A DNA stretch of 64,000 bases from Owenia fusiformis (lineage: Eukaryota; Annelida; Polychaeta; Sabellida; Oweniidae). The stretch lies in assembly GCA_903813345.2 (NCBI GenBank), contig CAIIXF020000003.1, positions 4,363,815 to 4,427,814 on the forward strand, in the 5' to 3' direction. The position numbers and the translations under genes were made by a program. The notes below the pieces were generated by a model. That model made no database searches and was not told the DNA's origin. It saw only the letters and a list, made by a program, of their open reading frames with translations. Each line of letters begins with the position of its first letter. Position 1 is the first letter of the stretch. Below are positions 31,848 to 57,390 of this stretch, in pieces.

Positions 31848-31923
31848 TGATGCTAACTTGAGCTTGTGTTATAGAAATAAATAACAAGCACCACAACAGT
31901 CCAAATAAATGAAGACTCGCCAT
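31848..31923 (-). CDS. TINAGL1: TINAG-like gene, first exon copy 1: signal peptide (best candidate)
   Basis: ATG at 31923 opens MASLHLFGLLWCLLFISI, then TQAQVSI: a short n-region, a hydrophobic core and a likely signal-peptidase site after TQA. The exon ends in phase 1 (A) at donor GTAAGT, which fits exon 2 (A+AT = Asn, then Asp-Cys). Of five copies this one has an intact frame, a good donor, a TATA-like box and a CCAAT box. It is also the nearest to exon 2. Linkage to exon 2 is inferred from phase, strand and the need for a secretory leader, not proved. Confidence 0.65.
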
Positions 31924-32215
31924 TCTATGTTTTAATTGTTAATCGTGCTATCACTGCCTAACTATAGCCACGTTTTGATGTTGATCTTGTTATTTCGGAT
32001 TTAAATGTATGTCTTCCGTATATGAAATAAAGTTTATTTTATTAAATGCGTATTACTATTGTCTTGATATGCTGCAGTTTTCTCTGTCTCGTTGCTCTTT
32101 TGAATAAAACGGAATTGTCTAGCATTACAAGCTTAGTTATTTAATGATAATGTGTCTTTCTTAGTTCCGCCTTTATATACTCCTCTACAAAAAGTTTCAC
32201 TGCTCTGATTGGTTG
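31924..32215 (-). promoter_or_regulatory. Promoter region of first-exon copy 1 (TATA, CCAAT)
   Basis: On the minus strand GTATATAAAG (32171-32180) is a TATA box ~250 bp before the ATG, and CCAATC (32207-32212) lies ~30 bp further upstream. The region between is conserved in copies 2, 3 and 5 (phrases like ACTCCTCTAC, GAATAAAACGGAATTGT and TTGTTATTTCG on the plus strand), consistent with a shared core promoter and 5' UTR. Confidence 0.6.
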
Positions 32216-32689
32216 CTAGCTATTAGTCGATGTGTCATTTTCTGAACCTTTGAATCTGTAAAAACACGATGTTTTATTGTGGAATCACTATCATAAGGGT
32301 TTTATGAAGTGATTTAGCTGGGTTGGACAAAGGGCAACCTTGGGGAAAAAATTATATATGTAAATGAAGATGGCCATGTTATAAAAGCGATTTTTGAAAG
32401 CCTTTGACTCAATTGACCATACTATTTTGTAATAAACTTACAAACGATGAAATCAACTGTGGAATAGTGGTAACATGGCATAATAGCTAAGAACACCAAC
32501 ATATTGTCTCATCCAACCATACTTCATTAATTACACATGGTGTGATTCAGGGATTTGTTTCATGTTATATTATTTTTCTATACATCAAACACCTGCATAA
32601 ATCAAGTAATTTATTGATTTCTTTGTCACTATTGGTGATTACACACATCAAATTTCATCTTACAAAATGTTTGATATCTCTAAATATGC

Positions 32690-33376
32690 TAAACATGCAT
32701 ACTATATAATATGTACACTTATCTGATAAGTTATTTTTATATATTTTAACATTATCTTATTCATTGAAGCTAAAAACATGGGTCTCCAGGTCCCAGGGCT
32801 ATCATTTTTCCTTTCTAAGATATGTTAGAAATTCAATAATTGGCAACCCAATTAAATTACTAAGAATTTAAGGAAACCAACAATTAGTCACTCCTTTGTA
32901 CTGCAAGCTTGATAAACAAAATATTTTGAATAAATGCGAAATACCAATAATAAATATGCTAATTTGCATTTATGCACAATATCTAAAAAGTTATCATTGT
33001 ATCTTTTAACATTACCGTATATCTGACTGACCCTGAAAACATTTTGGCTAATTTGCATATAATGTAGTACATTAAAATATAATAAATAATTCTTGTATCT
33101 TTTTACATTATCTTATTCATTGAGCCTGAAAACATGGGTATAGTAAGGGCACAACAATTGTGATGTTATCATTAATAATGGCTGCCTTTATTTACATATA
33201 TCATTTCCCCTGAAATTAGTTATTTTTTTGGCAACCCAATTAAATCAATAAAGAAACCCTTAATTAGTTAATTAGTCAGCAATTTTCAATGTATTACAAA
33301 CTTGATATGGAAAATATCTGAATAAATACGATATTTCAATCATAAAATATGCTAAGTTGCAATTATGCACTCTATC
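32690..33376. repeat. Degenerate ~200-bp direct repeats, interrupted by a G-rich insertion
   Basis: ATCTTATTCATTGA..CTGAAAACATGGGT recurs near 32755, 33010 (diverged) and 33110, and resumes at 35092-35145 after the G-rich block, showing that the block was inserted into the array. Confidence 0.6.
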
Positions 33377-33377
33377 T

Positions 33378-35090
33378 TATAAGTTATCAGGCCCGTAAGA
33401 CACTTTCCTCCAAGGGGGTGCAGTTTTTAATGAAGAGAAAATAAAATTGTCATTTTCTGCGTTAAACAAAGCACGTAAGTCAGAGGGAGGAGGTCAGTTA
33501 CTCTCTATATTAAGGCCACGCAGCCTATTTTGTAGTATTTTATTGTCTTCATATTGTTTTTAGACTAAATATTGTATGAGCAATTTGGAGAAATATTGGA
33601 ATAGGGGGAGGGTGTGCTAGAAGGCAATAGAATCAATTTAAAGAAATTTTGATTTTTTAATCATTTTCTTCTTAGGGGAGCGAGTGGGCAGCACAGGAAA
33701 ATTTTACTAATTCAAGATGCTGTCTGATTAATTCTGAGAGTGCCCCCCCCCCCTACTTTCACTTTCAAAGTGTATGAGTCAATAGAAAATGTGTTTTTGG
33801 GAGGTTTCAAAGAGGATAAAAGGTTTAGGTGGGGTGGGGATACCAGAGGGGGAGCAAGGGTTTTCCTTCAGAAACATTGACCATTTCAAGGTGCTATTTG
33901 ATGATGTCTGAGCACTTTAAGTGTCTGAGATAATACATGAGATTCATATTTTTTGAATTGTTTTGTGGGGGTGTGATGGCTGACCAACTCTCCTAGAAAT
34001 TTTTACAATTTTAAGATGACATTTGGTGCTTTCTGTTCACTTTTAAAGTGTATGAGTCAATAAAAGAAATGAACAACAATCACAATTTTTTGCACCCCCA
34101 GAATTTTTTCAAATTGTGGGGGTGCCAAAGGGGGAGGTAGGATTGGGGTGCCAAAGTGGGGAGCAAGTGTTTGTCCCCCATATCTGTCCCCCAGAAACAT
34201 TGACCATATAAAGGTGCTATTTGATGAAGTCTGAGCACCTGAAATGTGTCTGAGACAATACATGAAATAAATTCAGAATTTTTGTTCATTTTGTTTTGTG
34301 GGGGATGTGAGAGGTTGCCTACTTCCTTAGATGCTATTTGGTTCTTTCTGGGCACTTTTTAAGTGTATGAGTCAATAAAAAAGATTAAATCACTTTTTTG
34401 GGAGGGGGCGAAGGGGAGGTGGGGTGGGGATGCCAGAGGGGGAGCAAGTGTTAATACCCCAGAAACATTGATTTTATCAAGGAGCTATTTGATGATGTCT
34501 GGGCACTTTAAAAGTGTCTGAGACAATACATAAAATAAATTCAAAACTTTTCAATTGTTAGTGTGGGGATGTGAGGGGTGGCCCACTCCCCCTAGAAAAT
34601 TTTACAATTTTAAGATGCTATTTGGTGCTTTCTGGACACTTTAAAAGGGTATGAGTCAATAAAAAAAGATGAGAAAAAATCATAATTTTTTCAATTTTTT
34701 TTGGAGGGGGGGTGTCCAAGGGGGGATCCGGGGGAGGTGGGGTGAGGATGCCAGAGGGGGAGCAAGCAAGTGTTAGTCCCCAAGAAACATTGACTATATC
34801 AAGGAGCAATTTGATGATGTCTGGTCACTTTAAAAGTGTCTGAGACAATACATAGTAAATTCAGAACTTTTCAATTGTTAGTGTGGGGTGTGAGGGGTGG
34901 CCCACTCCCCCTAGAAAATTTTACAATTTTAAGATGCTATTTGGTCCTGTTGGGCATTTTCAAAGTGTATGAGTCAATGGAAAAAAAATTAGAGAGAAAA
35001 ATATTTTTCAAAAAAAGAATTCCATAATTTTTTTTTTGGGGGGGTTGTCAGAGGGGGGTCGCCCCCCCCCCCCCCATCTGACAGCCATGG
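33378..35090. repeat. G-rich tandem array, unit ~270-320 bp
   Basis: Units carry GGGGATGCCAGAGGGGGAGC, AGAAACATTGA, GAGCTATTTGATGATGTCTG, AAAGTGTCTGAGACAATACA and CCCCCTAGAAAATTTTACAA. About four to five copies are present. The block begins AGGCCCGTAAGACACTTTCC and ends CATCTGACAGCCATGG. No gene; stops in all frames. Confidence 0.75.
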
Positions 35091-35439
35091 TTATTCTTGT
35101 ATATTTTAACAATATCTTATTCATTAACCCTGAAAACACAAGTTTAGACAAATTAATTATGCTGCTTTCATTTTTACATTTCAAGATATAGAAAACAATC
35201 AATATTTCAATAATGGCCTCACTAATTAGCCTATATTATTTTTTCCCCAAACTAACTTTTTGTCCAACCCAGCTAAATCTCTTCAGGCAACCCTTATCGT
35301 CATAAATTAACCAAAAACCATCGTGTTTTTAACAATTCATAGGTTCACTATAGGATGCATAGGAGTGACAAATGGACTATATTAGGAATAGCCACATCGG
35401 ATCATCCCTATAATTTTAAACTTAAAATCTGCAATTATA

Positions 35440-36360
35440 CAATTGCCTCGATATGCTAAGAGTATTATATATATTTACCAAAAAGACATAGGTTGTTTTG
35501 AAAATGAACATACTAATGAAGATGATATTTTCATAGCCTTTCGAAAACTGAGCACTGATGATTCAGAGTTCAGGAAAAAATAACCTAGAAATATTATTAT
35601 ATACAATAACCAAAAAATTTAACACAATGATGATTCAGAGTTCCAGAAAACCATAACTTTGAAATTTTATTATGTACAATTACCAAAAAGCCATGACTTA
35701 TTTCGAAAATAAACACTTTAATGTAGATTATATTTCCATAACATTTCAAAACATGAACACTGATGATTCAGAGTTCCAGAAAACCATAACTTGCAACTGT
35801 TTAATGCATAAAACATATCCTCCCGGATTGATCTATACTCTGACTGATCTAGGATGTATTAGCAAAAGTTGTTGTCTGCTAGCATTATCTATCAGTGTCT
35901 ATATTAAAATAGTTGATTTAAGGTTTCATTAAGACCATTATAATAAAAATCATATAACATAAAATGAAACTTTTTAGCATATCATGAGGCTCAAATTAGA
36001 TTATCTCATTAAATACTTTAAATTTGCCATTGTATAGAATTTAAAATCAAGTCGAAGCACGTCAAAGCAAATAACATTTTAAAGGTGAAGATATTATATG
36101 CAATTGCCTAAAAGGCATGAGTTATTTCGAAAATAAACACGTTAATGTAGATGACATTTCCATAGCCTTTAGAAAACTTAGCATTGATGATTCAGAGTTC
36201 CAGATCGCCATAACTTGAAATTGATATTGAATTCAATTACCAAAAAGCCATGAATTCTTTCGAAAATAAACATATTAATGTAGATGATATTTCAGAGCAT
36301 TTCTAAAGTTGAGCACTGGCGACACAGAGTTCAAGATCACCATAACTTGGAAATGTTAAA
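35440..36360. repeat. Locus-specific ~140-bp repeats (direct copies)
   Basis: Copies near 35470, 35620, 35690, 36110 and 36235 share TACCAAAAAGCCATGA, TTCGAAAATAAACA, TTAATGTAGATGA and GATGATTCAGAGTTCCAGA. More copies lie at 36970-37045, 41380-41470 and 52145-52430, with inverted ones at 37725-37800, 39830-39930, 40315-40450 and 53440-53560. All lie around the first-exon copies. Confidence 0.75.
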
Positions 36361-36666
36361 TGCATAAAACTTTGAAGTGACCTATGCCCTGAATGACCTT
36401 AGAAGAACTTTGAGAATTTTAATGACTTTTTCAACGAATTAATGATGATAGGATGAAGGATGTATTAATCGCAAATAATTATTAATTGAAAAATACACCG
36501 ATACTACTGACGAATTTTTCAAAAGTATTATCTTTAACAATTCTGCATCAATTTGAATGTAGAAAATTATAACATGAAGTTAAACAACCTAAGAATAAAA
36601 GGGATACTGGATGCAAGGTTGGGATTTTTGAGTGAAATTAACAAATATAAATATATGTTATCTTAC

Positions 36667-36729
36667 TTGAGCTTGGGTTATGGACATTAACAAGCACCAA
36701 AAGAATCCAAATACCAGAAGACTCACCAT
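36667..36729 (-). CDS. First exon copy 2: signal peptide, altered donor phase
   Basis: ATG at 36729 opens MVSLLVFGFFWCLLMSI, then TQAQ, clearly homologous to copy 1. A short deletion after the last CAA leaves GTAAGA directly behind it, so the exon would end in phase 0 instead of phase 1 and could not join exon 2 in frame. Either non-functional or spliced to an unseen exon. Confidence 0.5.
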
Positions 36730-36975
36730 TTTTGTTTATTATTAATTGTGCAATAAATGCCTAACTAGCCACTCTTTTATGTCTATATTGTTTTGTCGGA
36801 TTCAAATGTTATGCCTTGTTTATTGTTTATTGCTACTGTCTTTTTGCTGCAGTCGTTCTCTGTTGGGTTACTATTTTGAATCAAATGCAATTGTTAAGTA
36901 TTCCCAGCTTATTCATATAATGTTAATATATATTTTCCTTCCACCTTTATTTACTCCTCTACAATATATTTTAAT
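36730..36975 (-). promoter_or_regulatory. Promoter-like region of first-exon copy 2
   Basis: Matches the copy-1 upstream region (ACTCTTTTATGTCTATATTG, TTTACTCCTCTAC on the plus strand). The TATA position reads TAAATAAAG on the minus strand. The similarity ends before the CCAAT box. Confidence 0.45.
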
Positions 36976-38240
36976 GTAGATGACATTTTCATAGCCTTTT
37001 AAAATTGGGCCCTGATGACTCAGAGTTCCTGATTACCATAACATGAACATGCACAAACTAATCCTCCTCGAAGTGAACTGTTCGGTGTATATGGATATGT
37101 TGAAGACATGCATAAGTAAATTCTGTCTATTGTGTTTAACATTAACATTAACCATGGTATTTTTGGATATTAATTTATTTATGGACACTTGAAAGGCAAA
37201 TACACGAAGCATTGGATATTACAATCACTTAATAAATATATCATTATATAACCGAACCAAATCTAAAGTATCTTCTTCTGTCAACCTATGCGATGACATT
37301 GGTACAATATGATTCTATTGAAAAAGTCATTGTAATGTCCATAGATGTTCTTAGGTCTTTCAGTGTATATGTCATTTAAAAACGAATTAGCTCTCTGCAT
37401 TTAACATAACCTCTATGTGTTGCGCTAGAAACTTTACACAAAGTATAAATATTCAAGTCATAATAGCTATTATAGATATAAAAGTTTAGGAGACAGCAAT
37501 TTGTTGGATTATAATTATTATTATACAGGGTAGATACATTATAATAATTTTTTGCATTTTTGGTAAAACAGTTTGCACCCATAAACCGTATTAAACTATT
37601 AATGCAATTCTATCGTATCATTATTTACTCGTTGCAAACGTCATTTTAATAAACCTTCATAAGTAAATTGGGGTGTAGGTCATTTCAAGACGGATATGTT
37701 CTCTGCATTTAACATTGAAATGAATGTTATGTTAAAATGAATCATAAGTGATCAATTTTCTAAAATCTATAAAAATATCATTAATATATTATTGTTTGTT
37801 AAATACTATTAATTTAAGTGAGTGCCTCGATTTCATACAATCTTCATTTGCAATTCTGAAAAAATGATAGAGCTGGCAATATACCACAAAATTTTAAACG
37901 AGAATTCAAGCTTAGGGATAGTAATTTGACGTCCATTGTATGAGAACCTAATAATTAATATTATGTTAAGTTGAGCTTGAAGTTTGCCTTGTCTTGAATT
38001 ATAATTAGGCCATACGGAATAATAAAATGTTAAGTTAACATGTTGCCACATTGTACAAAAAATATGAATATTCTGATATAATGCTTGAAAGAAGAAATTA
38101 CTATCTTGTTAAATCATAATTATGCTTGTACGGGGTGAATTCATTAATAAAAATTACATGCAATTAGTATACTCTTAGGTCATAAATAAATGCGCAAAAT
38201 CAGTTCGTTTATTGTCGAAATCTAAGCACTTGTGCATATG
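36976..38240. other. Non-coding, scattered repeat copies
   Basis: Holds degraded locus repeats (36976-37045 direct, 37310-37400 and 37725-37800 inverted). No gene. Confidence 0.45.
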
Positions 38241-38454
38241 AGAGAGTGGAGAGTTTCATATTATTGGCCTCTGTACCAAGTGCTAACAAACTACATTGAA
38301 TTTGAAAAACTATTAAAAAATAGAAGAAATATTCATTTTCTCCAGAATATGTTATGTTCAAAATATTCAGCAAGAGATGGGAAAGTCATATATCGATAGA
38401 GCTAGTATTAAAATAAAAGTGAAGTTAAATACAAATATAACTATATGTACTTAC

Positions 38455-38530
38455 TGGTGCTAACTTGAGCTTGTGTTATAGAAACAAACAACAAGCACCA
38501 CAACAGTCCAAATAAATGAAGGCTTGCCAT
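38455..38530 (-). CDS. TINAGL1: First exon copy 3: signal peptide, intact
   Basis: ATG at 38530 opens MASLHLFGLLWCLLFVSI, then TQAQVST, only a few substitutions from copy 1, with the same phase-1 donor GTAAGT. About 200 bp of the following intron (38240-38455) is also shared with the region behind copy 4 (56575-56770). Could serve as an alternative first exon. Confidence 0.55.
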
Positions 38531-38795
38531 TTTATGTTTTAATATTTATTCGTCCAATAATTGCCTACTGTCGCCACTGCTTTATGTCTATCTTGTTATT
38601 TCGAATTCAAATCTTATGTCTTTCGTATATATGTAATATTGCTACTGTCTTCATATGCTGCACTTGATATTGGTCTACAAACTCCTCGGAATAAAGTGGA
38701 ATTGTTTAGTTTTCGTAGGTTATTAAATAATCATGATTATGTGGCCCTCTCAGTTTTCACAATACAATAATTTTCACTGCGCTGATTGGTTTGCT
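38531..38795 (-). promoter_or_regulatory. Promoter-like region of first-exon copy 3 (CCAAT, no TATA)
   Basis: Conserved with copy 1 (TGTCTATCTTGTTATTTCGA, GGAATAAAGTGGAATTGTTT) and has CCAATC on the minus strand (38784-38789). The TATA segment is deleted. Confidence 0.5.
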
Positions 38796-38899
38796 AATGG
38801 AAACACCCAATGGTGTAATGAAAGGAATGATTGAGGGAATCTTGTAGGCAATGCGTGAATACTATTGGTCGAGTTTGTTGTAACCATCGTCACTTGCGT

Positions 38900-39540
38900 G
38901 ACTCAGTTACTAGCTCTGGTCATTCATATACTCATTTTGGTCACTCGTTTATTCATTTTATCCGACTATATTCATTCATTTGCAGGTCTGTCAACTGTCC
39001 CGCAATTTGCATATTTGTCACGCATTTGCTGAAGAATTTGAAGTCACGCCATTTATTTTTGCGTGACAGAAAATGTCACGCAAATATGCATTTTACCTGG
39101 TAATTGTCAAGCAAAAATATTTCTGTAGAAAAATTTCCAAAAAATGATCGTCTACACAGCAAAAATACGAACGACGGGAAAAAACGTACGCATTTTGTTC
39201 GGACTTTTCACGCGAATTACGGATATGTCACGCATTCCGTTCGAAATTTTTCAAGGTGTTCAGATTTGGACCAAGGTGTCCACATTTTGAGGGGAGGTGT
39301 TCAACATTTCCAAGTCACTCATGTTAGGTGTTCCCAAGTTGACAGGCCTGCATTTGAGTCACGCACTTACCCATTTTATCCAACTGTATTCATTCATTTG
39401 AATCACTCATTTATCCAATTTTACCCGACTATATTCATTCATTTGAGTCACTCATTTATCCGACTGTATTCATTAATTGAGTCACTCATTTACCCATTTT
39501 ATCCGACTGTATTCATTCATTTGATTCACTCATATTACAA
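38900..39540. repeat. Short tandem repeats (TTCATTCATTTGAGTCACTC) split by a MITE
   Basis: Units of ~30-40 bp with ATCCGACTATATTCATTCAT and GAGTCACTCATTTA. A MITE-like insert occupies 38982-39351: ends GCAGGTCTGTCAACT and AGTTGACAGGCCTGC are inverted, with ATTT on both sides. Apparent 90- and 147-codon frames here are repeat-derived. Confidence 0.7.
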
Positions 39541-39544
39541 TTAC

Positions 39545-41630
39545 TAAAAAATGTATTATTATAATGAATAGCCGAACCAAATCTAAGAATTAATTGTGTG
39601 TTTAAAATGTAATATCATCGCATTGATCATAATCATAAATAATTCATTACATATTGTAAGTAACATCTACGAATAATAAAAAACATGTTGTTGATGCAAT
39701 GAGAAAATGCTATGGTGCAATGTAATTCCATTGTAAAAGTCATTTTAATGTCCAAAGGTCACCCTAGGTCATTCGGGGTATATGTCACTTCAATACGGAT
39801 ATGTTCTGTGCATTTAACATTTTAATGCTATGATATACCGGAACTCTGAATCATCAGTGTTCAATTTTCTAAAATCTATGAAAATATCAACTACATTAAT
39901 AATCCCTTTATTGTTAAAATATGTCATGCTTTTTTAATACTGTTCACTCTGAAATGTTAAGTGCCTTGATCGTCTATTCGTAGATGAATAATCCGAGCGA
40001 TTTAGCACCCATTGTAAGTGAGCGTGGCTTACCATGGTAACCATAGATCATGGTTTTGGGCTATATGGGGTTTGTTTTTCTTGACTGGTATGCACTTAGA
40101 GTTTGCTTTTTCTTGCTAAGTTCCATTACAGCTTTTGGTCCTTTCCCTTTTGCACAAGTGCTTATATATTCAGTAATTGAATTAAATAACCTCCACCTTG
40201 AAACGATACTCAAAGTATACATATTCTGATATGACAGTTTAACATTTGTCCTCTTACGGTTATTGGGGTTGTAGGTCACTTCAAGGCAGAAACGCCGTAT
40301 GCATCTACAATTTAAATGTTAAAATAATCCCGACAATCTGAATCATCAGTGCTCAATTTTCTAAAAGCTTTAAATATATCAACTTATTGATATGTTTATT
40401 GTTGAATTAGAATTCAAGCCTTTTTAGATCATTGTATGTTAAATACCATTTCCTTAACTGAGTGCCTCAATCGTATACAATCATTATTTGCAATTCTGGA
40501 TAATGATAGAGCTGGCTTTATCCCTTGACACTTTAACTGGCAAGAAATAATGGAATTTGACTCCCATAAAGTTAAGCTTGAAGTTTGCCTTAGATTGAAT
40601 TTTTATTCAGACCATAATAAATAATGTCCAGTGAACATTTGACTATACATATGCAATCCATGGATTAGTGTACACTTAGGTCATAAATAAATGCTTTGTC
40701 ACAATATTATTTCATTTATTGTCGTGACATTTAATAATAAAGATAAAACACATAAAGTCTAAACAATATGCAAATATATAATTAATCATTTCTACCCTTT
40801 TGATATTTTAGAATTATCTGAATTGTCTCACGTGACTTGTGAAACTGTTCACTAGAAAATACTGGGTACAATTGGAGGGAACTTAAGGATTAGATTCAAT
40901 GTGAACCAGACATTAAAGTACATATTAATGTAACAATATTGATTTTTTAAATATTATTAACTATAAGAATTTAAAAATATCAAACTGTAAATTCAAAACA
41001 GTAAAAACAGTAACATGACAAAGGCAACAAATAACATGACAAAGGCAACAAATTACAAAAATCTAACAACGAATGCCAGTCACAAGTATGCGACAAATGT
41101 TCAAGGCCTATAATCAACCCTGCTTTAATACAGCAATCACAGAATATTAGGACATGTAGATTGAGGCATTTTAAACGTAATGGTATGGTTATTTTATAAA
41201 TTACATGCATACTAATGTAGCTTTATATCTTATATAATAGGAGCCAAATCGAACTAACCCTGCAGTGTCAATTAATACTACAACTCCATTACACAGAATT
41301 GCAAGTTATGAAGTGGTAGATCGAGGCACTTCACATTTTAAATGTAATGGTATTAAAAACAATAACCTAAAAGCCTTGAGTTGTTTCGAAAATAAACATG
41401 TTAATGTGCATGATATTTTCATAGATTTTCCATTTAACGATAACTTGGAAATGTTAAATGCATAAAAAATATCCTCGTTGAAGTAACCTATAACCCGAAT
41501 GACCTATGAAGACCTCTGAATAATTAAATGACTTTTACAACGAATAAATAATGATACGGTAGGTTAATATTAATGTGCTGAAAAATAACTGTGATGAGAA
41601 AAGGTATATGCTCAAAGTAGTGCCAGTGCT
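39545..41630. other. Non-coding, with inverted locus-repeat copies
   Basis: Inverted copies of the 35.4-kb repeat at 39740-39930 and 40250-40450; a direct copy at 41325-41480. GGTCATAAATAAATGCTTTG occurs at 40680 and again at 53.9-54.5 kb. No gene. Confidence 0.5.
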
Positions 41631-42258
41631 ACTGTTAAAGGACTATTCTCGGTTTGGAGAACGAAGTTCGTCACTCTAATTGAGCGTTATCCCTGCTTCG
41701 GACAAATTTGATTTTTTTACATAATATAGATTTGAATGTCTTCTTTTGAATAGTCATAATTCAATTTGGGTAATATTTCTAGATTTTCCATATAAAAATT
41801 ACTAGTGAACCACCCAACGTCGCTTTTAAGATTCGTACCACTTTTTTAACCTGATGTATTGCATATTTCCGTGGGTCGAATTGAGAAAAAAGACAAACAA
41901 AGTGTACAGGGATATGTCATGAGCATATCATGAAAAAATCCTTTCAATATGTTTTTAAGAAACATTCGAAAATAATTCATTCTTAAATCGTGTCACATTT
42001 TCGAGATATTCTCTGACATTCTATACAGATTTATCCAATAGAGGACCTCCCAAAAGAGTGACTTTAGATTTTTTGGCATTTCACAAATCATTTATAAAAT
42101 TGATTTTTCATCTATTAATTAGATGTCACCACTTGCTATGAACTACATGTACGCAAGTGGTGAACATAAGCAAGTCAATTGCTGTGAGCTGGAGAGGGTG
42201 TATTTATATCATTGACTTCTTTCCTACAACGTGATTATGTTTTAAAAGAAATATGGGG

Positions 42259-42475
42259 CCCGGGGCTACAGTGAAGTTGCAAATGGAGCAGGTATTCTCT
42301 ATCTTTTCGATGGGGCTTTTCTGCTAATAATACACTGAAAACTGCCTGATGAATTTATACAATATATTGTAGAACACTTGGAATAAACATGTATGTAAAA
42401 TCTAGTATACATTCTGAATCAGAAATATTGAAATAAACAAACGTCCTCCCTTCACGGCTTCACTGTAGCCTGTAC
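42259..42475. mobile_element. Palindromic MITE, sister of 46750-46935
   Basis: GGCTACAGTGAAGTTGCAAA at the left, and a diverged TTCACTGTAGCC at the right. The interior shares GGTATTCTCTATC, GTAAAATCTAGTAT and GAAATAAACAAA with the copy at 46.8 kb. Confidence 0.65.
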
Positions 42476-42533
42476 CCCTTTTAAAGTAACTGGAAAATGT
42501 AATTGTAAATGTAATAACATTTTCGAACCTTTA

Positions 42534-42642
42534 AGCTACGTTCACACCAACGGCGCTTTGATGGCGCTTTAATAAGACGTGCAAAGCCGCTTCACACGCC
42601 GCATTAAAGCGCCATCAAAGCGCCGTTGGTGTGAACGTAGCT
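42534..42642. mobile_element. 109-bp palindromic MITE, TTA target site
   Basis: Arms AGCTACGTTCACACCAACGG and CCGTTGGTGTGAACGTAGCT are perfect and continue through GCGCTTTGATGGCGCTTTAAT. TTA stands on both sides (42531-42533, 42643-42645), a PIF/Harbinger-type target duplication. Confidence 0.85.
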
Positions 42643-42754
42643 TTAGTGACATGAACAAAGGACATTTAGCTTCTCCGATTTAATTCACAATTTTCAGAAA
42701 TTCACATCAGTTGATGATTACGCTTTGCACGCCGCTTTAAAACCCCGATGACTC

Positions 42755-43200
42755 CAGAGGTAGTTTAATCCGGTAGCCGACAGGCGTTTCTTGCATTATT
42801 GAATACAAGCTAACCTTATATTCGCGAATGCAACTAACGCCTGTCGGCTACCTGATTAACCCAGTATTATATGACCAAGTCATTTAAATATGAATGGAAT
42901 AGTGGCAGGTACTATTCGTATTGACATGAGTTTCCAGTAAAATAATAGGTTAATCCGGTAGCCGACAGCCGGTAGCCGACAGCCGTTAGTTGCATTTGCG
43001 AATACAAGCTAAGACTATGATTTGGGAATGGAAGATTTCAGCTACCGGATTAACCTACCATTCTATGGGCGACTCATTTAAATATGAAAAGAACCTGATA
43101 ATATTCCATTCATATTTTAATGAATTGCCCATAGAATAGTATAGTAGGTTTATCCGGTAGCCGACAGGCGTTAGTGGCATTCGCGAATACAAGCTCATTT
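42755..43200. repeat. Cluster of inverted repeats around TAATCCGGTAGCCGACAGGCG
   Basis: TAATCCGGTAGCCGACAGGCG-type ends occur at 42767, 42952 (doubled) and 43150, and inverted at 42838 and 43040. An inner inverted pair, CATTCTATGGGCGACTCATT / AATGAATTGCCCATAGAAT, lies at 43062 and 43120. Likely nested or incomplete MITEs. Confidence 0.65.
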
Positions 43201-45223: not shown

Positions 45224-45482
45224 TGAATTTCTGTATCTTTGACAACCTCCTTTCCTGTAACCAACTTCCCAAGCTTTGTAGAAAGACGGGTCTGTAGCTG
45301 ATCATAGCTTGTTTGTTTGTAGTAACTCGACGTGTCTTCTGTTAGAAGATGGAGATTGTCTTTGATGGTATCGACAATTTCTGTCCAACAACATGGATGC
45401 ACCAAGTAGCTTCTTAGTAAAAGTAAAACTTCTGGTTTCGAAAAGAAAACCATTCGTTTTCTTTTTGTCAAGAGCGTAGGTT
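45224..45482 (-). CDS. Candidate element gene, exon 2: possible Myb/SANT-like DNA-binding segment
   Basis: Acceptor CTGTTTCAG, AA completing Glu with G from exon 1, then PTLLTKRKRMVFFSKPEVL, LLLRSYLVHPCCWTEIVDTI and further to VVKDTEI, ending CA before donor GTAAGAG (phase 2). A basic start followed by a helical stretch with spaced aromatic residues is reminiscent of Myb/SANT-type accessory proteins of DNA transposons; this is only an impression, no motif is diagnostic. Confidence 0.55.
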
Positions 45483-46106: not shown

Positions 46107-46131
46107 CTTTGCTTACAGTTTTCGAAGCCAT
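46107..46131 (-). CDS. Candidate element gene, exon 1 (start codon)
   Basis: ATG at 46131, reading MASKTVSK plus one base, with donor AAAG|GTAAGT. Phase 1 matches exon 2 exactly. 25 nt. Confidence 0.5.
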
Positions 46132-46259
46132 GTTACTCGTGTACTATCGTAAGAAGGTTGTGACACACCAGTGCACAAGTCAAGTAAATATATGAATGCA
46201 TACGCATAGACACGTGTCACTGCCAAATACTCAGCGATGCACAAACTTGTCTCATGTTA

Positions 46260-46399
46260 TGCCTGGGTCACACAGGCTCCGATCCATCGGCCGGCGCCCG
46301 GCCGATTGAGTGTTTTGTTCAATATTGTATTCAATTTTGAACAAAATACTCAATCGGCCGGGCGCCGTCGTGAAAATCAGAGCAAATGTGACCAAGGCA
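46260..46399. mobile_element. 140-bp MITE, TTA target site
   Basis: TGCCTGGGTCACA and TGTGACCAAGGCA are inverted ends with TTA on both sides (46257-46259, 46400-46402). The centre is a GC-rich palindrome, CCGGCCGATTGAGTGTTTTG and CAAAATACTCAATCGGCCGG. Related to 18430-18545. Confidence 0.8.
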
Positions 46400-46749
46400 T
46401 TACTTGAAAAAATCATAGTTTTAGGACCGAATGAAGCGTATGGGCTCTGGGCTTAAACAATGCCGTTACTGTAAATCAATTGCAAATTAAATTAGACCTT
46501 ATGTAAAACGTGTAGTCTATCGTCTAATGATAAATGAAATAAACCTGAAAACCATTAAATGATGAATATTTGTCGAATATGCATTGGAATTTATCTAGAA
46601 ATATTGCATGGTAAGTAATCAGTTTATCCGCAAAAATAAACTTTGAAAATACATAATTACAGTATCGATTTACAGTAACCAAGTCGGTGTCGGGACTCTG
46701 TTGTCGAAGTCGGCGAGTTTGAAACAACTCTACTACGTGAACACATTTA

Positions 46750-46935
46750 AAAAGAATACAGGGTACAGTTAAGTTGCAAATAGAGCGGGTATTCTCTATC
46801 CTTTTCCATAGGACTTTCTGGTGATAATACGTTGCAAACTGCTCGATAAATCTATACAATGTAAAATCTAGTATTCCTTCAGAACTATGGAAATAAACAA
46901 AGGTCCTCCATTTGCAACTTCACTATAGCCTGTAT
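46750..46935. mobile_element. Palindromic MITE, sister of 42259-42475
   Basis: GAATACAGGGTACAGTTAAG on the left and CTATAGCCTGTATTCCTTTT on the right are inverted, with GTTGCAAAT / ATTTGCAAC inside. It begins just outside the 44519-46733 element. Confidence 0.65.
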
Positions 46936-46939
46936 TCCT

Positions 46940-49105
46940 TTTAAAGTAATACGGGCTACATACAGTATTGGGGTATAGTAGTTTGATTTTTCAATAAATC
47001 ACTAATCTAGCTTCTTTCCTTGAAAAAACATGAGTTTTGATGTACGTATATTAAGCTTATAAACTTGCTGATCATATGATTTTAATATTTTAATACTACA
47101 TGATACTCATATCAAAATACCAATGTATTAGTGAACAACTCTTAAGTTTGATATTGTACGAATTTTCTGATTTGCTGTAGTAGTCGTAAATGCAACATAT
47201 ATTATCAATGTTATGTTACTTTGTGTCATATGAAAAATAAATTCGTACAAAAGTGAGTTTTATTTCGTTTGTTATTCAATGTAGAATACACGTTGTACAT
47301 TATTTCATGTAGGATATTGACAATAATCAGACTATCGTATTACAATACAGAAGAATAAAAAGAGATAATGATATATGCATTGACATGCGTAAAGGTATCA
47401 ATATTTTATCTAGTATTTCATTTTATCCCTCCCATCCCATCCCACCCGCTCATCAGCAATCCCCAGGAAATTCATTCGGTGCTTTTAAATGTTAATAGTT
47501 CGGTTGAGTTTTAAAAATAAATCTTAAGCACTTTAAATCTAGATAAAATATTCATGATTTGATTGTGATTATCATTTGTAATTATTACATGACGGTTCCA
47601 TTACATTCAATGCGTATCTAATCTTCATAGTTTACTAATAAATCAGTTATTAAATACTCGATTTTCGACAGGTAAAGGTAATATATCAACTCTCGGTCCC
47701 TACTATTTCTCGTGTAGATATATTGCATAACTTTCTCAGATATATCCTGTATATTAAATACATTAAATAACATTATATATGTTAGTCTCAGCCTAGACAG
47801 TATATATATCAATTTTATTGGATAATGTCATGGGCTTTCCCACGATAATGCGTAAATTCGAATGAACTTGAAATAAAATTCAACATCCAAAATGTGTTAA
47901 TGTGATCATCCACCGTGTAACTAAAAGCATATGCATGGCCTATTTGCCTTAAAATACGATTGTAATTATGATTTCTGTTCTCCATATGTAAAATCTAGAA
48001 ACTTACTTGAACATGAAGTCTTGTCAATTTACTTAATCGTTGATTGATTTCTAGGTTTATTAGAATTAAAACAACGATCGTTTCATCAAACGAGTCCTAT
48101 ATTCAATATCTATTCGTTGGGCCTATTCTTTAAATGTAACTATATTATTTTAACTTTAAAAGTATCTGTTTAGTGCTACGTTAACATATATTCATTATTT
48201 TTATCCACACAACAGTATCAAACGTTAATGCATAACTAGCCATGCCAAGACATGGCCACTACCCTTGTCCAGAGTAAAATACAAGGTCCTCATTCTTTAA
48301 TGATTATGTTTCAATTAATTTAGTCTAGTGCTTTAAATGTAGGAAAATGAGTCGCTGTCACGTCATATCTGGCGCAGCAATTTCAGAGTCACTGCAATAA
48401 ATTGAAACATCACTCGGATCATAAGACTAAATAAATAAGCTATTTAGGGATGAATAACATTCGGTGAAATCCGTGATATCGTTATATCATTCGTTAATTG
48501 TCAAAGCTGCGCCCATTCGCTACCCTCATCTGTGAAACTATCGATATTGAGTCGAGTCTCTATTTTCTATTTTAAAACATTGGGATTTACGCGCACAAGA
48601 GATGCTTTGTAGTTAGGCTATTACAAAAATCACGAAATCACCACCAACATTTCTCGGTGCAGGCAGATATAAGGCCAGACTGGGCATACACTAAATGTAT
48701 TGTATGTGCTCCTTAGGTTGCACTCGGGTGCTATCAACATCGAACACACACACGTTTAAGATACACAGAGATAATTAAGGGATGAGTGACAAAGGGATGT
48801 TAAAAACAGGTGGCTATTGCAATTGATATTTTAATGTAACTTTAGTATGTAAGAATCTTTTCATCAATAAAAATAGCATCTTAGATATTACAGCTACATG
48901 TACAATGTGAGTGTATTTAAAAATGTAGTACATAGCTAGTTCCATCTATAAAGATGTCTGATGACAAAAAGCTCAATTTTCCTTGATGTCATGGTCAATG
49001 GGACTTTAACACGTGAACTAATGTTTTTTATTTTTTTGTTTTAAAGTCACTTATAGCAAACCTAATCTAACAATTATCTCACTATATGCTTATGACATAT
49101 TCATG
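46940..49105. other. Non-coding, no gene seen
   Basis: AT-rich interior of the 7.7-kb element, stops in all frames, no repeat recognised. Confidence 0.5.
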
Positions 49106-49522
49106 TATACGTTTTTGTCTTTTTTTTCAAATCAACCCACGGAAATATCCAATACATCAAGTTAAAAAAAGTGGTACGAATCATAAAAGCGACGTTGGGT
49201 GGTTTACTAGTAATTTTTATATGAAACATCTAGAAATATTACCCAAATTAAACTATGACTATTCAAAAGAAGACATTCAAATCTATATTATGTAAAAAAA
49301 TCAAATTTGTCCGATGCAGGGATAACGCTCAATTAGAGTGACGAACTTCATTCTCCAAATCGAGAATGGTCTTTTACAAAATTATTATATTTAATGCAAA
49401 ACAAGTATACACAGGTTTACATAACAAAATTATTACATAAAATAAAAGTGCAAAAAGCACAAACTCAATTTATATTGAATGGTAGGTCATGGTTTTAAAA
49501 AAATGGAAATCTCTACAAACTA

Positions 49523-51932
49523 AAGGAGAGGGAGTTGTTTGTAGAATGAATCGGGGATTTTTTTCATGAATTTCGCTTATATTTTTCATCCAAAAAACAT
49601 CAATACACTTTAAAATATTTTGTTTACTTTAAGATTACACCATGTAATCCAAAAATATATTTCTCGTTTTCAAAGATAATCCATGGATTAACACCCAGGT
49701 ATTTTTATTTTTCAAACTTCAGAGGGCTGGGAATCATTGATGCTCAACGCTTTTGAATACGATAAATGCTGTTTAAATAAGTTTTACGTATGCCAATAAT
49801 TTCTCAAATTATGTAAGCTGAATGCATTCCATAATCCCTAGAATATTCTCTTGGAGGAATCCAATGGCAGTTCCAAGCAGATTTTTAGATGGCAGGTAAG
49901 TAAATTCTCTAGTACTCGCCTTATTGGGTTGAGTTAGTTTATATTCAAAAATTATATATGATTCTGTAAAGATGTCAGTATGGATGCTATATAGATTGCA
50001 CACGTATGGTAAGCTGTATAATCCTATATTATGTAACACAAGTACAGTTTTGGTTGACATGATTGTGACTGAGTGAGAGATTAAACTCTTTAAGGTAGTT
50101 CTGCATGTTGATAATTTTTACTAATTTTGGTGATGAATAAATTATCTGATAATTATAAATTGGGCAATATTTTTGACATTTTAAGTGGATATAAAGAATA
50201 ATGGTAACATACACCATGGACCATGCATACACATACAATTACAAATGTGAAAATATTGTCCCTTTTATTGATTATCGGTATTTATAATCATGAAAATTAG
50301 TGAAAAATATCGAGACTCTACCTTAAAATCAGATTGGCTTACAAGTACCCTAAGCTATTTTCATTACACTATACTCATGATACTATAGCCCACTGTCCAG
50401 GAAAATGGATGCCTGCAAAGTTCCAAATAATTCACTTTTTCCCTGTGTAATCTGTAAAATTCAGTTGAAAAAAAGAAGAGCGGGCAAAAGAAGACTGATT
50501 TCAAACTCAAGTTGGCTGTCGGGATGGTTGAAAATAATAATAACAATAGTGTGATAATTATCCATTATTATTTTCACATTTTATTGCAAGAAAATCTTTT
50601 TGCAAGGGTTACAAAGGTTGAAATATTGTGCTGGCTCTATTTGCCTGGAGTTTAATATTCAGACCTAGCTATGTGTGAATTGATTATCAATCACATTGTA
50701 CATTATAATGAACATAATAAATAAAACCATGAATGTTGTTCATAAATCAAACTGGAATCACAATCTTCATCAACATCAATTATGGATGGAAAGGCAGTAC
50801 TTATTTATCAGACATAAATTATTGTAATTGTATGATATCGTATTTGTGATTTGAATATACACTGTGATATTTGAGAAAGAGAATGTTTTGTTTTAGTTTC
50901 ATTGCAATTGATAACCCTAATATCTTAAAGCCAGAATCCTTCCTTGTCTTCCAATTTTCTAATAACCTCAGAAGTTCCTACTTTTTTTAAAAAAATACAA
51001 TTTTCCATGATCATTTTTATATCACCACCACAAGTGGTGACATATTGTTATGGTCTCAAACTTTTTTGTGGACGGTGTTCAGTGGTTGGTGTTTATCATT
51101 TGGCAGTTGGTGTCTGTAACAAATGGCAGGTGTTGACATTTTGCATGTGAATGCCTTGTCTTATAATGTAGCCAACTGCAATGGATGTAAAACGGATGCA
51201 GTTGACTAATACATTTCTTGGCATAAATTCAAATCATATGCTAATTTTAAATGAAAATGCTTTTTGTCATGTTTTACAACACATAAATGCCATAATATCT
51301 CGATGTCACATTCAGGAAAATATGGCTATCAACAAGTTTTGAATTCTTACAATCCTGGAAGTTGTACATGTAAGCATACACATCTGTCAGTTCAGTTTAT
51401 GTGTAAAAGTTAATCCCCTAAGCCTTAATACCTGATGCATGAAATATTATGGAATAGTTACATAATATGTACTTGTGCTATTTAGGTTAATGTTGTGCTG
51501 TTTCACCAGATTTGACTGACATATTTAAATAACAACAATTTGATTTGATGATCAGACAGCAACAACACATATTAAGTGGCCAAGACAAAAGAATGTCATA
51601 TGATAGGCATTCTAGGGATTAAGGAATGCATTCAGCTTACATAATTTGAGAAATTATTGGCATACGTAAAACCTATTTAAAACAGCATTTACTGTATTCA
51701 AAAGCGTTGGGCATCATTGATTCCCAGCCCTCTGAAGTTTGAAAAATAAAAATACCTGGGTGTTAATCCATGGATTATCTTTGAAAATGAGAAATATATT
51801 TTTGGATTACATGGTGTAATCTTAAAGTAAACAAAATGTTTTAAAGTGTATTGATGTTTTTTGGATGAAAAATATAAGCGGAATTCATGAAACAAATCCC
51901 CAGATTCATTCTACAAACAACTCCCTCTACTT
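49523..51932. mobile_element. 2.4-kb element with ~340-bp TIRs, TA target site
   Basis: 49523-49860 is repeated inverted at 51595-51932: GGGAGTTGTTTGTAGAATGA / TCATTCTACAAACAACTCCC, CCATGGATTAACACCCAGGT / ACCTGGGTGTTAATCCATGG, TTATGTAAGCTGAATGCATT and its inverse. TA lies outside both ends (49521-49522, 51933-51934). The interior has only frames under 90 codons, none recognisable; it looks non-autonomous. Confidence 0.82.
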
Positions 51933-52144
51933 TAATACAGTTCCCCAAGTGTTTTTGTATTTTTGGTTCATGTAAGCTATATTCCAATGTATTGAATTTT
52001 TAAAATCAATTTATAATTAGAACACATATTCATTATCGATAATAATCCTTACTAAATTATATTAAAAATATTAAGCAAATGATGGAAAGTCATACATTGT
52101 TATTATGAAACATGAAAATAAAGATAATAGTTTAGTATATGTAT

Positions 52145-52430
52145 ATGCAATTACCAAAAAGACATGGATTTTTTCGAAAATGAATTCAATATATTAATAA
52201 ACATATAAACTACATTAATATAGATGATAATTTCACTCTTTTGAAACCTTAGCACTGATGATCCAGAGTTCCAGATCGCGATAATTTTGAAATGTTATTA
52301 TATACAATTACCAAAAAGCCATAAGTGTGTCCAAAATAAACAGATGTTATTTTTACACCCTTTCAACAATTGAGCACTGATGATACAGAGTTGCAGATCA
52401 CCATAACATGGAAATGTTAAATGCATTAAA
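52145..52430. repeat. Two copies of the ~140-bp locus repeat
   Basis: ACCAAAAAGACATGGATTTT / ACCAAAAAGCCATAAGT and GAGCACTGATGATACAGAGT match the 35.4-36.4 kb copies. Confidence 0.65.
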
Positions 52431-52731
52431 AATTATATATTGTTTTACCCAATTAGACCTATAATTTCATTTTTTTCGGAGAATAAACTAAGCCTTGGGA
52501 TGCCCCAAGCACTATCACTATCTATTTTTTTCATATTAATCCAATGTGTAAGGAAAAAGTAGAAAGTCGATCATTTAAAAAGAAAAGCAAAGAAACCACA
52601 CACCCAGTGATGGTATCTTGATGTGTTGACTACAAACATTGTTGCGTTGTGTTTTACTGTCTGAACCATTGTTTTTTAGATCTTAATTAGAAAAGGATGT
52701 CATAAATAAATAGAGGTTATTTAATGGGAGG

Positions 52732-53133
52732 GATGGAATATGAATTTTATTTCGAGGGAAAATATGATATTGACCAAAGAAAATATCATATTGACCGAGG
52801 GCATCCTCCTAAGCAGATGTCCAGAATCCGTACCTCCTTCTCCCCCCTGCTATAACCAATTTGGACGCGCCCGATTTAACTGAATCACGTGATCTACTTA
52901 TGCGCAATGACTTATACATGATTTCTGTCGCAGTGTTGCGACAGCCAATCAGATTGCGAGTTTCTAATCTGGGAAATGGTAAATGCTTATCGCAGGGGTA
53001 AAAAGAAAGAATATGTTCTGGATTTTGAAGCCCTGTGATCGGAGGATGGACCGAGGGTGATAGCCTGAGTGTAAATATGATATTTTTCGAGGCCAATATC
53101 ATATTTTCTCAAGGAAAAAATTCATATTCCATC
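52732..53133. mobile_element. MITE with GATGGAATATGAATTTT ends
   Basis: GATGGAATATGAATTTTATT with GAAAATATGATATTG at the left, and AATATCATATTTTC with AATTCATATTCCATC at the right. The 400-bp interior is GC-richer. No frame with homology. Confidence 0.7.
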
Positions 53134-53339
53134 ACGACAGAAAATAGTTAAAGCTAAAATAGTTACACTTAATTATGAAGATTATTTATTTGTTTGAAAG
53201 GTAATAACATCGCATTGATCATCATCATAAAAAAATCACTTCATATTGGAAATAACCAATATGTATGATGACAAAATTAATGATGAAGTGCAAAATTTGT
53301 TGTTGTTGCGAAGAGAGAACGCTGTGACACTTGTGCAGT

Positions 53340-54500
53340 ATTCTTAAATTGTAAAAGTCATTATATGTCTATAGGTCTTTAGGCCACTTGGGATAAATAT
53401 CACTTCAAGACCGATAAGTTCTGTGCATTTTAACATTTCAATGTAATAATGATTTAGAACTCTGAATCATCATAGTTTAATTCACTAAAATCTAAAAAAT
53501 ATCAACGGCATTAATCTGTTTCTTGTTAAAATATCTCACGCCTTTTTATGTAATTGTTTTTTAAAATATAATTTGCTTAAAATGTCATTTGCTTGATTAT
53601 CTTCTTGTGGAGGTATAATCCAGTTGGACATTATAACCGATTTTGGCCATAGTTAACCATATAATTAGTTTATTAGTTTAGGGAACTGTAGTTTTGTAAA
53701 ATTATGATTATGATTGTTCAGGATAAATTCATTAAACAGTTTTGCCATAAACCTCGTTGGACTATAGGTGCAATTCTATCATATCATAATTTTTACTGGT
53801 TATAAACGTCATTTTAATTTTATAAAAGTCCATAATAAACGCTTTATTCATAAATTTAGTGTAAAAGCTATGCAATTATTGTTTTCTTGGGTCATAAACA
53901 AATGCTTCATCACAAAATAAGTACATTTATTGTCAATCCTAAGCAATTATTATACTCTTAGGTCATAAATAAATGCTTTGTTACGAAATTAGTACATTCA
54001 TTGTAAAGTCTATGCAATGGACTAGATGCGAGTAGAAATAATCTTGATTTACGTCATTAAATATTCAAAATTCAGTTAAAATGATGTCATATTTGAAATC
54101 TACAACTAAAAGTACACCTAGAAATATGGTTTTGAAAATTGTTTATCAACTTTGAATATTTTAAGTTTTTTGAAAATGTGACTTCTAGTTCGGGTTGATT
54201 TCCCATAGAAAATTGAACCACTAAAACAGATGTAATTTAAGTTAAAGGGAACTTTCTACTATACCCACTATGCTATCTGACCCGAACGAACCACCTGGTG
54301 GTGAAACAGGTTACTACCTACTGGCATCTGCGTTATTATTATTTTCCAAGGTCATAAATAAATGCTTTGATGCAAAATTAGTACATTCATAGTAAAACCT
54401 ATGCAATTATTATACTCCAAGGTCATAAATGAATGCTTTGTCACAAAATTAATACATTTATTGTAAAATCTATGCAATTATTATACTCTTCCGTCACATT
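53340..54500. repeat. Inverted locus repeat plus GGTCATAAATAAATGCTTTG repeats
   Basis: 53340-53560 is an inverted copy of the 35.4-kb repeat. GGTCATAAATAAATGCTT-type units of ~75 bp with ACAAAATTAGTACATT recur near 53890, 53960, 54350 and 54420. Between them (54015-54310) lies the second copy of the 26110 dispersed repeat. Confidence 0.65.
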
Positions 54501-55020
54501 TATTTTCAAGACATTTAAACAAAAAAGCTTAAACACATGACATCTAGAGAATATGCAAATACATAATAATTATACTCAATCATTTATACACAAGGCTTAA
54601 TGATATTTAAGTGTTATCTAAAATTGTCTCATGTGACTACTTGTGAAACTTTATACTAATTTACAAATATAAATGGGAAAAGACTAAGCTACAATGGGAA
54701 GGGACTATATGGTTCTCATCAAAAGGTTGCCGAGAAATGTATAGCCACAAGTAAGACTCAAATGTCTAGTGAATAATTTAGGATCAAGTTCAAAATAAGT
54801 TTAAAATAATAGGGAGGTTAAGATACATTTTTTACATTAATGTGTAGAATTATGGTCCTCTGTGGATTATTTCTCCCTTTTGTACTGTTTCATTGGCCGA
54901 TTGAGTATTAAGGTATACAGGAAAAAATATAATGTTTGTTTATAGGGGATTCGTTAATGAAGTGAATAGTAAATGGGTAAAAGTCCCGTAACCTTTGACT
55001 TCATCGTAACGCAGTAGGTC
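54500..55020. other. Non-coding interval
   Basis: No gene or clear repeat. Confidence 0.45.
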
Positions 55021-55024
55021 CTTA

Positions 55025-56440
55025 GACAAGTCCTGTATGCTTGAATGTTTGTCTTAAGTGGATTCGAAAATGAAGTGAATAGTGGATTGGGAAAATGCCC
55101 GTCACCTTTGACTACGTTGTAACGCAGTAGGTCCTTAGACAGATTCTGTATGCTTGAATGTTTGTTTTTAGTGGATTCGTAATGAAGTGAATAGTGGATT
55201 GGGAAAATGCCCGTAACCTTCGACTATGTTGTAAAGCCTTGGGTTCTTAGACAACACCTGTATGCTTGAATGTTTGTTTGATTGTAAACGAAGTGAATAT
55301 TCAATTAGGAAAATGCCCGTCACCTTCGACTACGTCGTAACGCAATAGGTTCTTAGACAAATCCTGTATGCTTGAATGTTTGTTTATGGTCGATTTGTAT
55401 TCGAATGGAGTGAATAGTTGATTGGGAAAATGCCTATAACCTTCGACTATGTCGTAAAGCATTGGGTTTTTAGACAACTCCTGTATGCTTGAATGTTTGT
55501 TTATAGTGGGTTGTAAATGAATTGAATAGTGGATTGGGACAAGTCCTGTATGCTTGAATGTTTGTTTTAAGTGGATTCGAAAATGAAGTGAATAGTGGTT
55601 TGGGAAAATGCCCGTCACCTTCGACTACGTCGTAACGCAGTAGGTTCTTAGACAAATCCTGTATGCTTGAATGCTTATTTTAGTGGATTCGTAAACGAAG
55701 TGAATAGTGGATTGGGAAAATGCCCGTCACCTTCGACTACGTCGTAACGCAGTAGGTTCTTAAACAAATCCTGTATGCTTGAATGCTTGTTTTAGTGGGT
55801 TGTAAATGAAGTGGAAGGTGAAAATGCCCGTCACCTTCGACTACGTCGTAACTTAGTAGGTTCTTAGACAAATCCTGTATGCTTGAATGCTTGTTTTAGT
55901 GGATTCGTAAACGAAGTGAATAGTGGATTGAGGAAATGTCTGTAACCTTCGACTACATTGTAACGCAGTAGGTCCTTAGACAAATCCTGTATGCTTGAAT
56001 GTTTGTTTATAGTGGGTTGTAAATGAAGTGGAAGGTGGATTGGGAAAATGCCCGTAACCTTTGACTATGTTGTAACGCAGTAGGTCCTTAGACAAATTCT
56101 GTATGCTTGAATGTTTGTTTTTAGTGGATTCATAAATGAAGTGAATAGAAGATTGGGAAAATGCCCGTAACCTTCGACTACGTTGTAACGCAGTAGGTCC
56201 TTAGACAAATCCTATATGCTTGAATGTTTGTTTTAGTGGATTTGTAATTGAAGTGAATAGTGGATTGGAAAAAATGCCCGTATTCTTCGACAACACCGTG
56301 ACGCATTAGGTCCTTAGACAAATCCTGTATGCTTGAATGTTTGTTTTTAGTGGATTTGTAAATGGAGCGAATAGTTGATTGGAAAAATGCCTGTAACCTT
56401 CGACTATCTCGTTATGCATTACGTCCTGCATGCATGATTG
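55025..56440. repeat. ~112-bp tandem array, 12-13 units
   Basis: TGTATGCTTGAATGTTTGTT recurs every ~105-119 bp from about 55034 to 56327 (one short unit near 55487-55550). Units share GAAGTGAATAGTGGATTGGG, AAAATGCCCGT, ACCTTCGACTACGTCGTAAC and GCAGTAGGTCCTTAGACAAA. Non-coding. Confidence 0.9.
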
Positions 56441-56817
56441 CTTGTTCATGAATTATTTTCAAATATAAAGATATAATTAGCATGAATAAAATAAGAACAC
56501 TGTGTAAAACATAAAGGGGAAGAAGCTAAAACTAAAATGCATATTTGATGAATGGTCATGTGATTTTTAAGGAAATGTATGTTCAGTTAATTTAAGCACA
56601 TATGCACATAGAATAGTGGAGAATTTTGCATTATTGGTCCATGTACACTTGGATGCATTGAATTTTAAAAACAATTTAGAGATAGAATAAATATTGATTT
56701 TTGATATGAATCCTGAATATTTTATGTTCAAGTATTGAGTAAGATATGAAAATTCATATATTCTTATGATGAGAAAAGACACGTCACACGAGTAAAGTTG
56801 GATAAAATTACTCGTGC

Positions 56818-56877
56818 TTATTTTGTAGAAATAAACCACAAGAACCACAACAGTTCAAATACCCAAGTACTTGCCAT
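56818..56877 (-). pseudogene. First exon copy 4: decayed signal-peptide exon
   Basis: ATG at 56877 opens MASTWVFELLWFLWFIST, then Lys and TAA where the other copies read into QAQVST. The donor is also damaged (GAGTAATT in place of AGTAAGT). Homologous in sequence and flank to copies 1, 3 and 5. Confidence 0.7.
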
Positions 56878-57026
56878 TTTTAAGCAAGAGATGGGAAGTC
56901 ATATATTCTCATTATCATTACTGTATACACCCACAAGGGTGTCATGTAAAAGTTTGTAAATAATACTATATATTAGAAAATAAAGCTGAATTGAATTGAA
57001 TTAGAACTATAAATATATGTACTTAC

Positions 57027-57102
57027 TTGTGCTTACTTGAGCTTGTGCTGTAGAAATAAACAACAAGCACCCAAGCAGTCTGAATATCCAAAGACTCGAC
57101 AT
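57027..57102 (-). CDS. TINAGL1: First exon copy 5: signal peptide, intact
   Basis: ATG at 57102 opens MSSLWIFRLLGCLLFIST, then AQAQVST, ending in phase 1 before GTAAGT. Intact frame and donor; it differs from copies 1 and 3 at several residues, so it is an older copy that has stayed open. If used as a first exon the TINAG-like transcript would span at least 57 kb. Confidence 0.5.
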
Positions 57103-57390
57103 TTTCCGTTTAGATTGTTAATCTTGCGTTAACTGACTAACCGTTGCCACTCTTTTATGTTTATCTTGTTCTTTTTGATTCAATTGTTGTGTCTTGTGTA
57201 TTTAATATTGTTTATTTCATTAATTCTTTGCGTCTTCTGTCCTCTTGCCGCAGTCGCCCTCCGTCTGCTCACTCCTTTGAATAAAATGGAATTGTACAGT
57301 ATTCTCAACTTATTCATATAATGATTGTGTGCCTCAGTTCTACCTTCATTTGCTCCTCTCCAATAATGTTCACTGCGCTGATTGGTTAAA
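57103..57390 (-). promoter_or_regulatory. Promoter-like region of first-exon copy 5
   Basis: Matches the copy-1 upstream region (CTTTTATGTTTATCTTGTTC, TTTGAATAAAATGGAATTGT, TGCTCCTCTC). CCAATC on the minus strand at 57380-57385; the TATA position has decayed to CAAATGAAG. Confidence 0.45.

Follow-up and report, generated by a model that had tools for sequence, protein, structure and literature searches.

Tandem signal-peptide first exons as putative alternative promoters upstream of a TINAG-like gene in Owenia fusiformis

The window analyzed here is a 64,000-nucleotide stretch of the Owenia fusiformis genome (contig C3, positions 4363815–4427814; assembly of 498 Mb in 525 contigs). Its minus strand carries several homologous leader exons, a single exon 2, and the exons of a papain-fold body (Table 1). 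The original prediction, made from the letters alone, listed five leader copies, and a blastn search of the window with the copy-1 region located all of them on the expected strand and at the expected positions: copies 2, 3, and 4 (L2, L3, and L4) were matched with E-values of 3e-49 to 6e-71, and a fifth, hereafter the remnant, by a short match at 56810–56861 (E 5e-9). L1, L3, and L4 had been described as keeping the frame and a phase-1 donor that fits exon 2; they do, and the ATG is also kept. Each consists of 76 nt (25 signal-peptide-type codons plus one base) followed by GTAAGT, and exon 2, which starts A/TGACTG after a TTTTTTCCAG acceptor, matches their phase. The copy said to have changed phase is L2, in which 8 aligned bases are gone at the donor and a GTAAGA remains in another phase, and the copy said to contain a stop is the remnant. 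Judged by the −3,−1 rule, each intact leader likely ends four residues past the signal peptide cleavage site, these residues being QVSI or QVST. The mature proteins would therefore be nearly, although not strictly, the same from every leader, much as had been proposed.

Table 1. Features of the window on the minus strand and loci with a leader series on contig C3. Window positions count from its first letter; leader exons run from the ATG to the last exon base.
Feature	Position	Strand	Remark
CCAAT element of L4	57369–57387	-	exact 19-mer
L4 leader exon	57102–57027	-	intact, phase-1 donor
Leader remnant	56877 to ~56818	-	promoterless; in-frame stop
CCAAT element of L3	38773–38791	-	exact 19-mer; 12-nt TATA segment missing downstream
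L3 leader exon	38530–38455	-	intact, phase-1 donor
L2 leader exon	36729–36667	-	wrong-phase donor; CCAAT element absent upstream
CCAAT element of L1	32196–32214	-	exact 19-mer; TATA box begins 32179
L1 leader exon, coding part	31923–31848	-	intact, phase-1 donor
Exon 2	21813–21879	-	common to all leaders; phase-1 acceptor, phase-2 donor
Cys-rich exon (ECEG)	14606–14716	-	boundaries by eye
C1 exon a (GDCASSWAF)	14151–14383	-	GC donor; boundaries by eye
C1 exon b	13664–13814	-	boundaries by eye
C1 exon c	12573–12744	-	boundaries by eye
C1 exon d	8726–8883	-	boundaries by eye
C1 exon e (VANSWG)	6214–6319	-	boundaries by eye
Locus A	~0.65 Mb on C3		
Locus C	~2.44 Mb on C3		
Locus B	~3.54 Mb on C3		
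Locus D	4363815–4427814 on C3		the window

Downstream of the leaders, exon 2 continues in frame into the following exon, giving a Cys-rich stretch, and C1 exons a to e have usable splice sites (both judged by eye). Reading exons by eye, we did not find an exon between 8726 and 6319 or the 3′ end of the gene, and tblastx of this body against genes B and G was too noisy for a gene model. Two exons match the peptidase C1 fold (Pfam PF00112, E 4.7e-8 and 7.9e-8), and cathepsin chains were matched as well. Wild-type cathepsins read GSCWAF, whereas the seven loci read here all have CASSWA, in which Ser replaces the catalytic Cys; this motif aligns with GSSWAF of chain 5j94_A. The Cys-rich stretch runs from ECEG to GNKGW, a pattern that we take to be typical of TINAG. 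Given the papain fold, the Ser replacing the catalytic Cys, and a Cys-rich stretch ahead of the C1 exons, the body fits a TINAG-like protein. TINAG and TINAL are counted among the inactive papain-like proteins (PMC10318531), and with its Ser the body resembles TINAG and TINAGL1 in this respect. TINAG-like proteins carry Somatomedin-B and VWC-like domains ahead of the C1 domain; here the N-terminal part is Cys-rich over exon 2 and its neighbor, as judged by eye. Across the genome, one C1 exon has 10 strong matches and a single weak one, which puts the family at about ten genes.

Several further features accompany the body. The intron after C1 exon a is of the GC-AG type (GCAAGT donor at 14150, by eye). 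Partly decayed tandem copies of the ECEG exon occupy 14593–15384 (two open, two with stops, others partial), and the copy number of this exon varies between loci. The intron after exon 2 contains a minisatellite of ~51-bp units (20431–21675) that includes 326 consecutive open codons on the minus strand; loci A, B, and C have similar arrays. The intron separating L1 from exon 2 holds a long mosaic of ATACCATGGTAT-like palindromic repeats (23300–25400) and, on the plus strand, a reverse-transcriptase-like frame with one stop (26919–29174, non-LTR type by eye). At the window edge (1–732, minus strand), an NHL-repeat stretch (Pfam PF01436, E 1e-13) apparently belongs to another gene running off the window.

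The leader series is not confined to the window. Genome searches with the DNA of the L1 and L4 modules returned 20 and 23 matches (19/19 and 20/20 first-look candidates scored), all falling in four clusters on C3 (loci A–D) or at one place on contig C4 (locus E). A longer first query matched elsewhere in the genome by its ends and not by the leader (best 40 of 223 candidates). Each of the four C3 loci has the order L4, L3, L2, L1, and then exon 2 on one strand, that is, tandem homologous first exons upstream of one constant-exon set. In a tree of 17 modules, L1, L2, L3, and L4 each formed one clade over loci A–D with 100% bootstrap; the four units are therefore older than the copying of the locus. 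Sequence similarity between the loci is high (about 92% in the L1 module). In the window the series extends over 25 kb, against about 10 to 13 kb in A, B, and C, because ~13 kb is extra between L4 and L3; at the thresholds applied, C has nothing that corresponds to this segment. Locus E has a single leader, placed beside L4 in the tree (support 93/88); it may be a reduced series, or L4 may be the oldest unit. Two more genes on C3, F and G, each combine exon 2 with a single diverged leader (MANFLIFGLSLCLM..; E-values of 0.008 to 0.04 in tblastn), with a matching donor and a CCAAT element carrying 2 and 3 mismatches, respectively. From these two genes we infer that the ancestral state was probably one leader. 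A DNA search with the F leader matched F, G, and, partially, three places at array loci. Because the L1 and L4 searches missed both of these leaders, there may be further diverged ones.

A signal-peptide exon with a phase-1 donor could serve any phase-1 body, and the upstream leaders might thus be first exons of other genes, with bodies between the copies or further off. We regard this as very improbable. Body exons had been predicted to be absent between the copies, and this was borne out by tblastn: exon 2 and three C1 exons have true matches only downstream of the leaders, other matches outside the body exons being at chance level (E at least 0.13). TINAG body exons are likewise absent between the leaders in all four loci (tblastn), and it is for such exons only that separate intervening genes are rejected. 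Furthermore, in the L1 and L4 searches leader modules turned up only in the four C3 series and at the C4 place, each time ahead of a TINAG-like exon 2 with matching orientation.

The putative promoter sequences differ between the units in a regular manner. About 250 bp of upstream sequence had been said to accompany the copies, which holds for four of the five, whereas similarity of the remnant starts 3 nt before its ATG. The CCAAT motif ascribed to this upstream region is present at L1, L3, and L4 but not at L2, whose upstream sequence is similar yet lacks the element. A CCAAT-containing 19-mer occurs exactly three times in the window, at these three leaders (0.00 expected in shuffles). Over loci A–D, a 17-mer of the element was recovered with 0–2 mismatches at all 12 L1, L3, and L4 units; the L2 units had 7–8 mismatches in 4/4 loci, equal to shuffles. 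The TATA box predicted for copy 1 was confirmed, and within the window L1 alone has one at the expected place after CCAAT. Position-specific differences at this place are identical across all four loci: L1 has the TATA box 31–33 nt past the start of the CCAAT element (4/4), L3 lacks a 12-nt segment there (4/4), and L4 has AAATGAAG (4/4). Fragments that comprise promoter and UTR but no coding exon are found between L4 and L3 in A, B, and C, and directly upstream of L4 there are additional promoter copies (two in C, one in B); promoter units have therefore been both gained and lost. Just upstream of the L1 promoter in the window begins a 78-bp repeat (32222–32300) with many near-identical copies in the genome; the L1 sequences of loci A, B, and C do not extend into it. 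Upstream of L4, three near-identical tandem units of ~230–245 bp (58022–58728) are open on the minus strand.

The units also differ in their state of preservation. All 12 L1, L3, and L4 units of loci A–D have kept the ATG, an open frame, and the phase-1 GT donor, and the gaps in two of them keep the frame (3 nt in A-L3, 9 nt in B-L4). By contrast, only one of the four L2 units retains the phase-1 donor, which reads AT for GT in A and C and is deleted in D; A and C share this GT to AT change though they are not otherwise shown as sisters. Over the four loci, with columns gapped in any locus dropped, exon and GT sites of L1, L3, and L4 were changed less often than flanking sites (16/222 vs 164/946; odds ratio 0.37, P=8e-5). 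The ratio for L2 (6/68 vs 32/214; odds ratio 0.55, P=0.23) was not clearly different from this value. Taken position by position the test is weak (P 0.07, 0.03, and 0.02). Moreover, the first intron sites of L1 (3/50 changed) and L3 (5/55) were changed about as rarely as the respective exons (4/78 and 5/75). Since all 12 units are intact, all 12 have the CCAAT element, and exon changes are fewer than in the flanks, L1, L3, and L4 look kept, while L2 and the remnant look dead. In one of these units, B-L3, Val 16 in the core of the signal peptide is replaced by Asp.

These data bear on the possibility that one leader per locus is used (most likely L1, nearest to exon 2), with L3 and L4 being duplicates that have not yet decayed. 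Copies plainly do decay here, as L2, the remnant, and the promoter fragments without a coding exon testify; moreover, the loci are close in sequence, and the codon changes in L1, L3, and L4 (10 nonsynonymous, 6 synonymous) are too few for dN/dS to be informative. Over the same time, however, L3 and L4 stayed intact in 8/8 cases and L2 broke in 3/4. In a neutral simulation that took the loci as independent, ignored gene conversion, and used only changes unique to one locus, 12/12 intact units had a probability of 0.0003 when indels were included and 0.028 when only substitutions were allowed. The L4 exon was changed at 7/69 sites against 72/314 in its flanks (P=0.02). We therefore consider it doubtful that L3 and L4 are relics, without dismissing the idea.

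The bodies show a patchwork of similarity. Exon 2 and its flanks group A, B, C, and D (96/99), whereas C1 exons a–c unite B, C, D, F, and G (100/99) to the exclusion of A; A and D are near each other at either end of the gene (again in exons d and e) and distant in the middle. The cause is likely recombination or gene conversion within the family, and because of this patchwork the loci are not independent. Within the leaders, D-L1 departs from the other L1 units at three codons and there agrees with L3 (two at the amino acid, one at the codon), which points to conversion or to an older state, and the leaders may be kept alike by gene conversion. Interlocus conversion alone could then account for intact units, preserved through copying between loci and not by selection on each, in line with the donor change common to A-L2 and C-L2, the conflict between the trees of exon 2 and C1 exons a–c, and the alternating proximity of A and D. 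Such a process should, however, have spread or mended L2 alike, which instead shows two distinct kinds of breakage across three loci, and it sits uneasily with positions that remain separate clades. We judge it improbable as the whole explanation.

The original prediction offered alternative promoters or a promoter duplication in decay, and copy by copy both halves find support, the former in L1, L3, and L4 and the latter in L2 and the remnant. We hypothesize that more than one leader is in use, the array acting as a set of alternative promoters whose first exons supply the signal peptide to a common body, and assign this reading a probability of roughly 0.6 on the basis of genomic sequence. 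A live unit would comprise a promoter (CCAAT, in some cases also TATA), a 5′ UTR about 220 nt long, the 25-codon signal peptide, and the phase-1 donor. Transcription would begin at one of the three live units, the leader would be spliced across the intervening units to the single exon 2, and cleavage of the signal peptide would leave a nearly identical mature protein. What differs would be the promoter (CCAAT and TATA in L1, CCAAT only in L3, CCAAT and the L4-specific sequence in L4), and with it, presumably, expression. A genome-wide pattern search for a retrocopy with a leader–exon 2 junction, which would have been evidence of splicing, found none; one match with three mismatches was taken as chance. 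In evolutionary terms, the series is older than the duplications that brought the locus to four sites on a single contig; L2, which lacks CCAAT in all four loci, would later have lost its phase-1 donor in three of them, as units undergo birth and death.

Among known systems, UGT1 and Gcnt2 have homologous first exons standing in tandem ahead of a shared constant-exon set; units are born and lost, pseudogenes occur, and a distinct promoter for each first exon is stated for Gcnt2 (PMC1885805). In these systems the first exon encodes much of the mature protein, which for UGT1 means the signal peptide together with the N-terminal recognition domain. Compared with these descriptions, the array reported here would work like a multiple-variable-first-exon cluster but differs in that its first exon encodes a signal peptide and about four residues, so that the mature protein hardly changes. 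Diversification of the mature protein by first exons, as in UGT1, was not found, the residues after the likely cleavage site being QVSI or QVST only. Mouse amylase has several promoters for one gene, with alternative non-coding or leader first exons. Several promoters for one gene are also described for human SHBG (PMC2973947). Both resemble the leader array, as far as these accounts go, in having several promoters (putative ones here) for one gene. In open-licence literature searched by title or abstract start, none of the matches listed concerned tandem first exons limited to a signal peptide or the first exons of TINAG. To our knowledge, the leaders of amylase and SHBG are not arranged as tandem homologs that were copied en bloc to several paralogous loci.

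Variable-first-exon arrays are mostly known for diversifying proteins. One whose first exons encode little beyond a removed signal peptide would isolate the regulatory side of this architecture, and with four paralogous copies, single-leader relatives, and an L2 position that has no promoter element and has lost its donor in three loci, these loci offer a natural experiment on the selective keeping of extra promoters. More tentatively, we propose that units of promoter and signal peptide are born, specialized (with or without TATA), and lost before one body, and that they may travel as a block into new loci and recombine with different bodies. If true, this would be a gene family that multiplies promoters and not coding sequence, diversifying expression while the mature protein stays constant.
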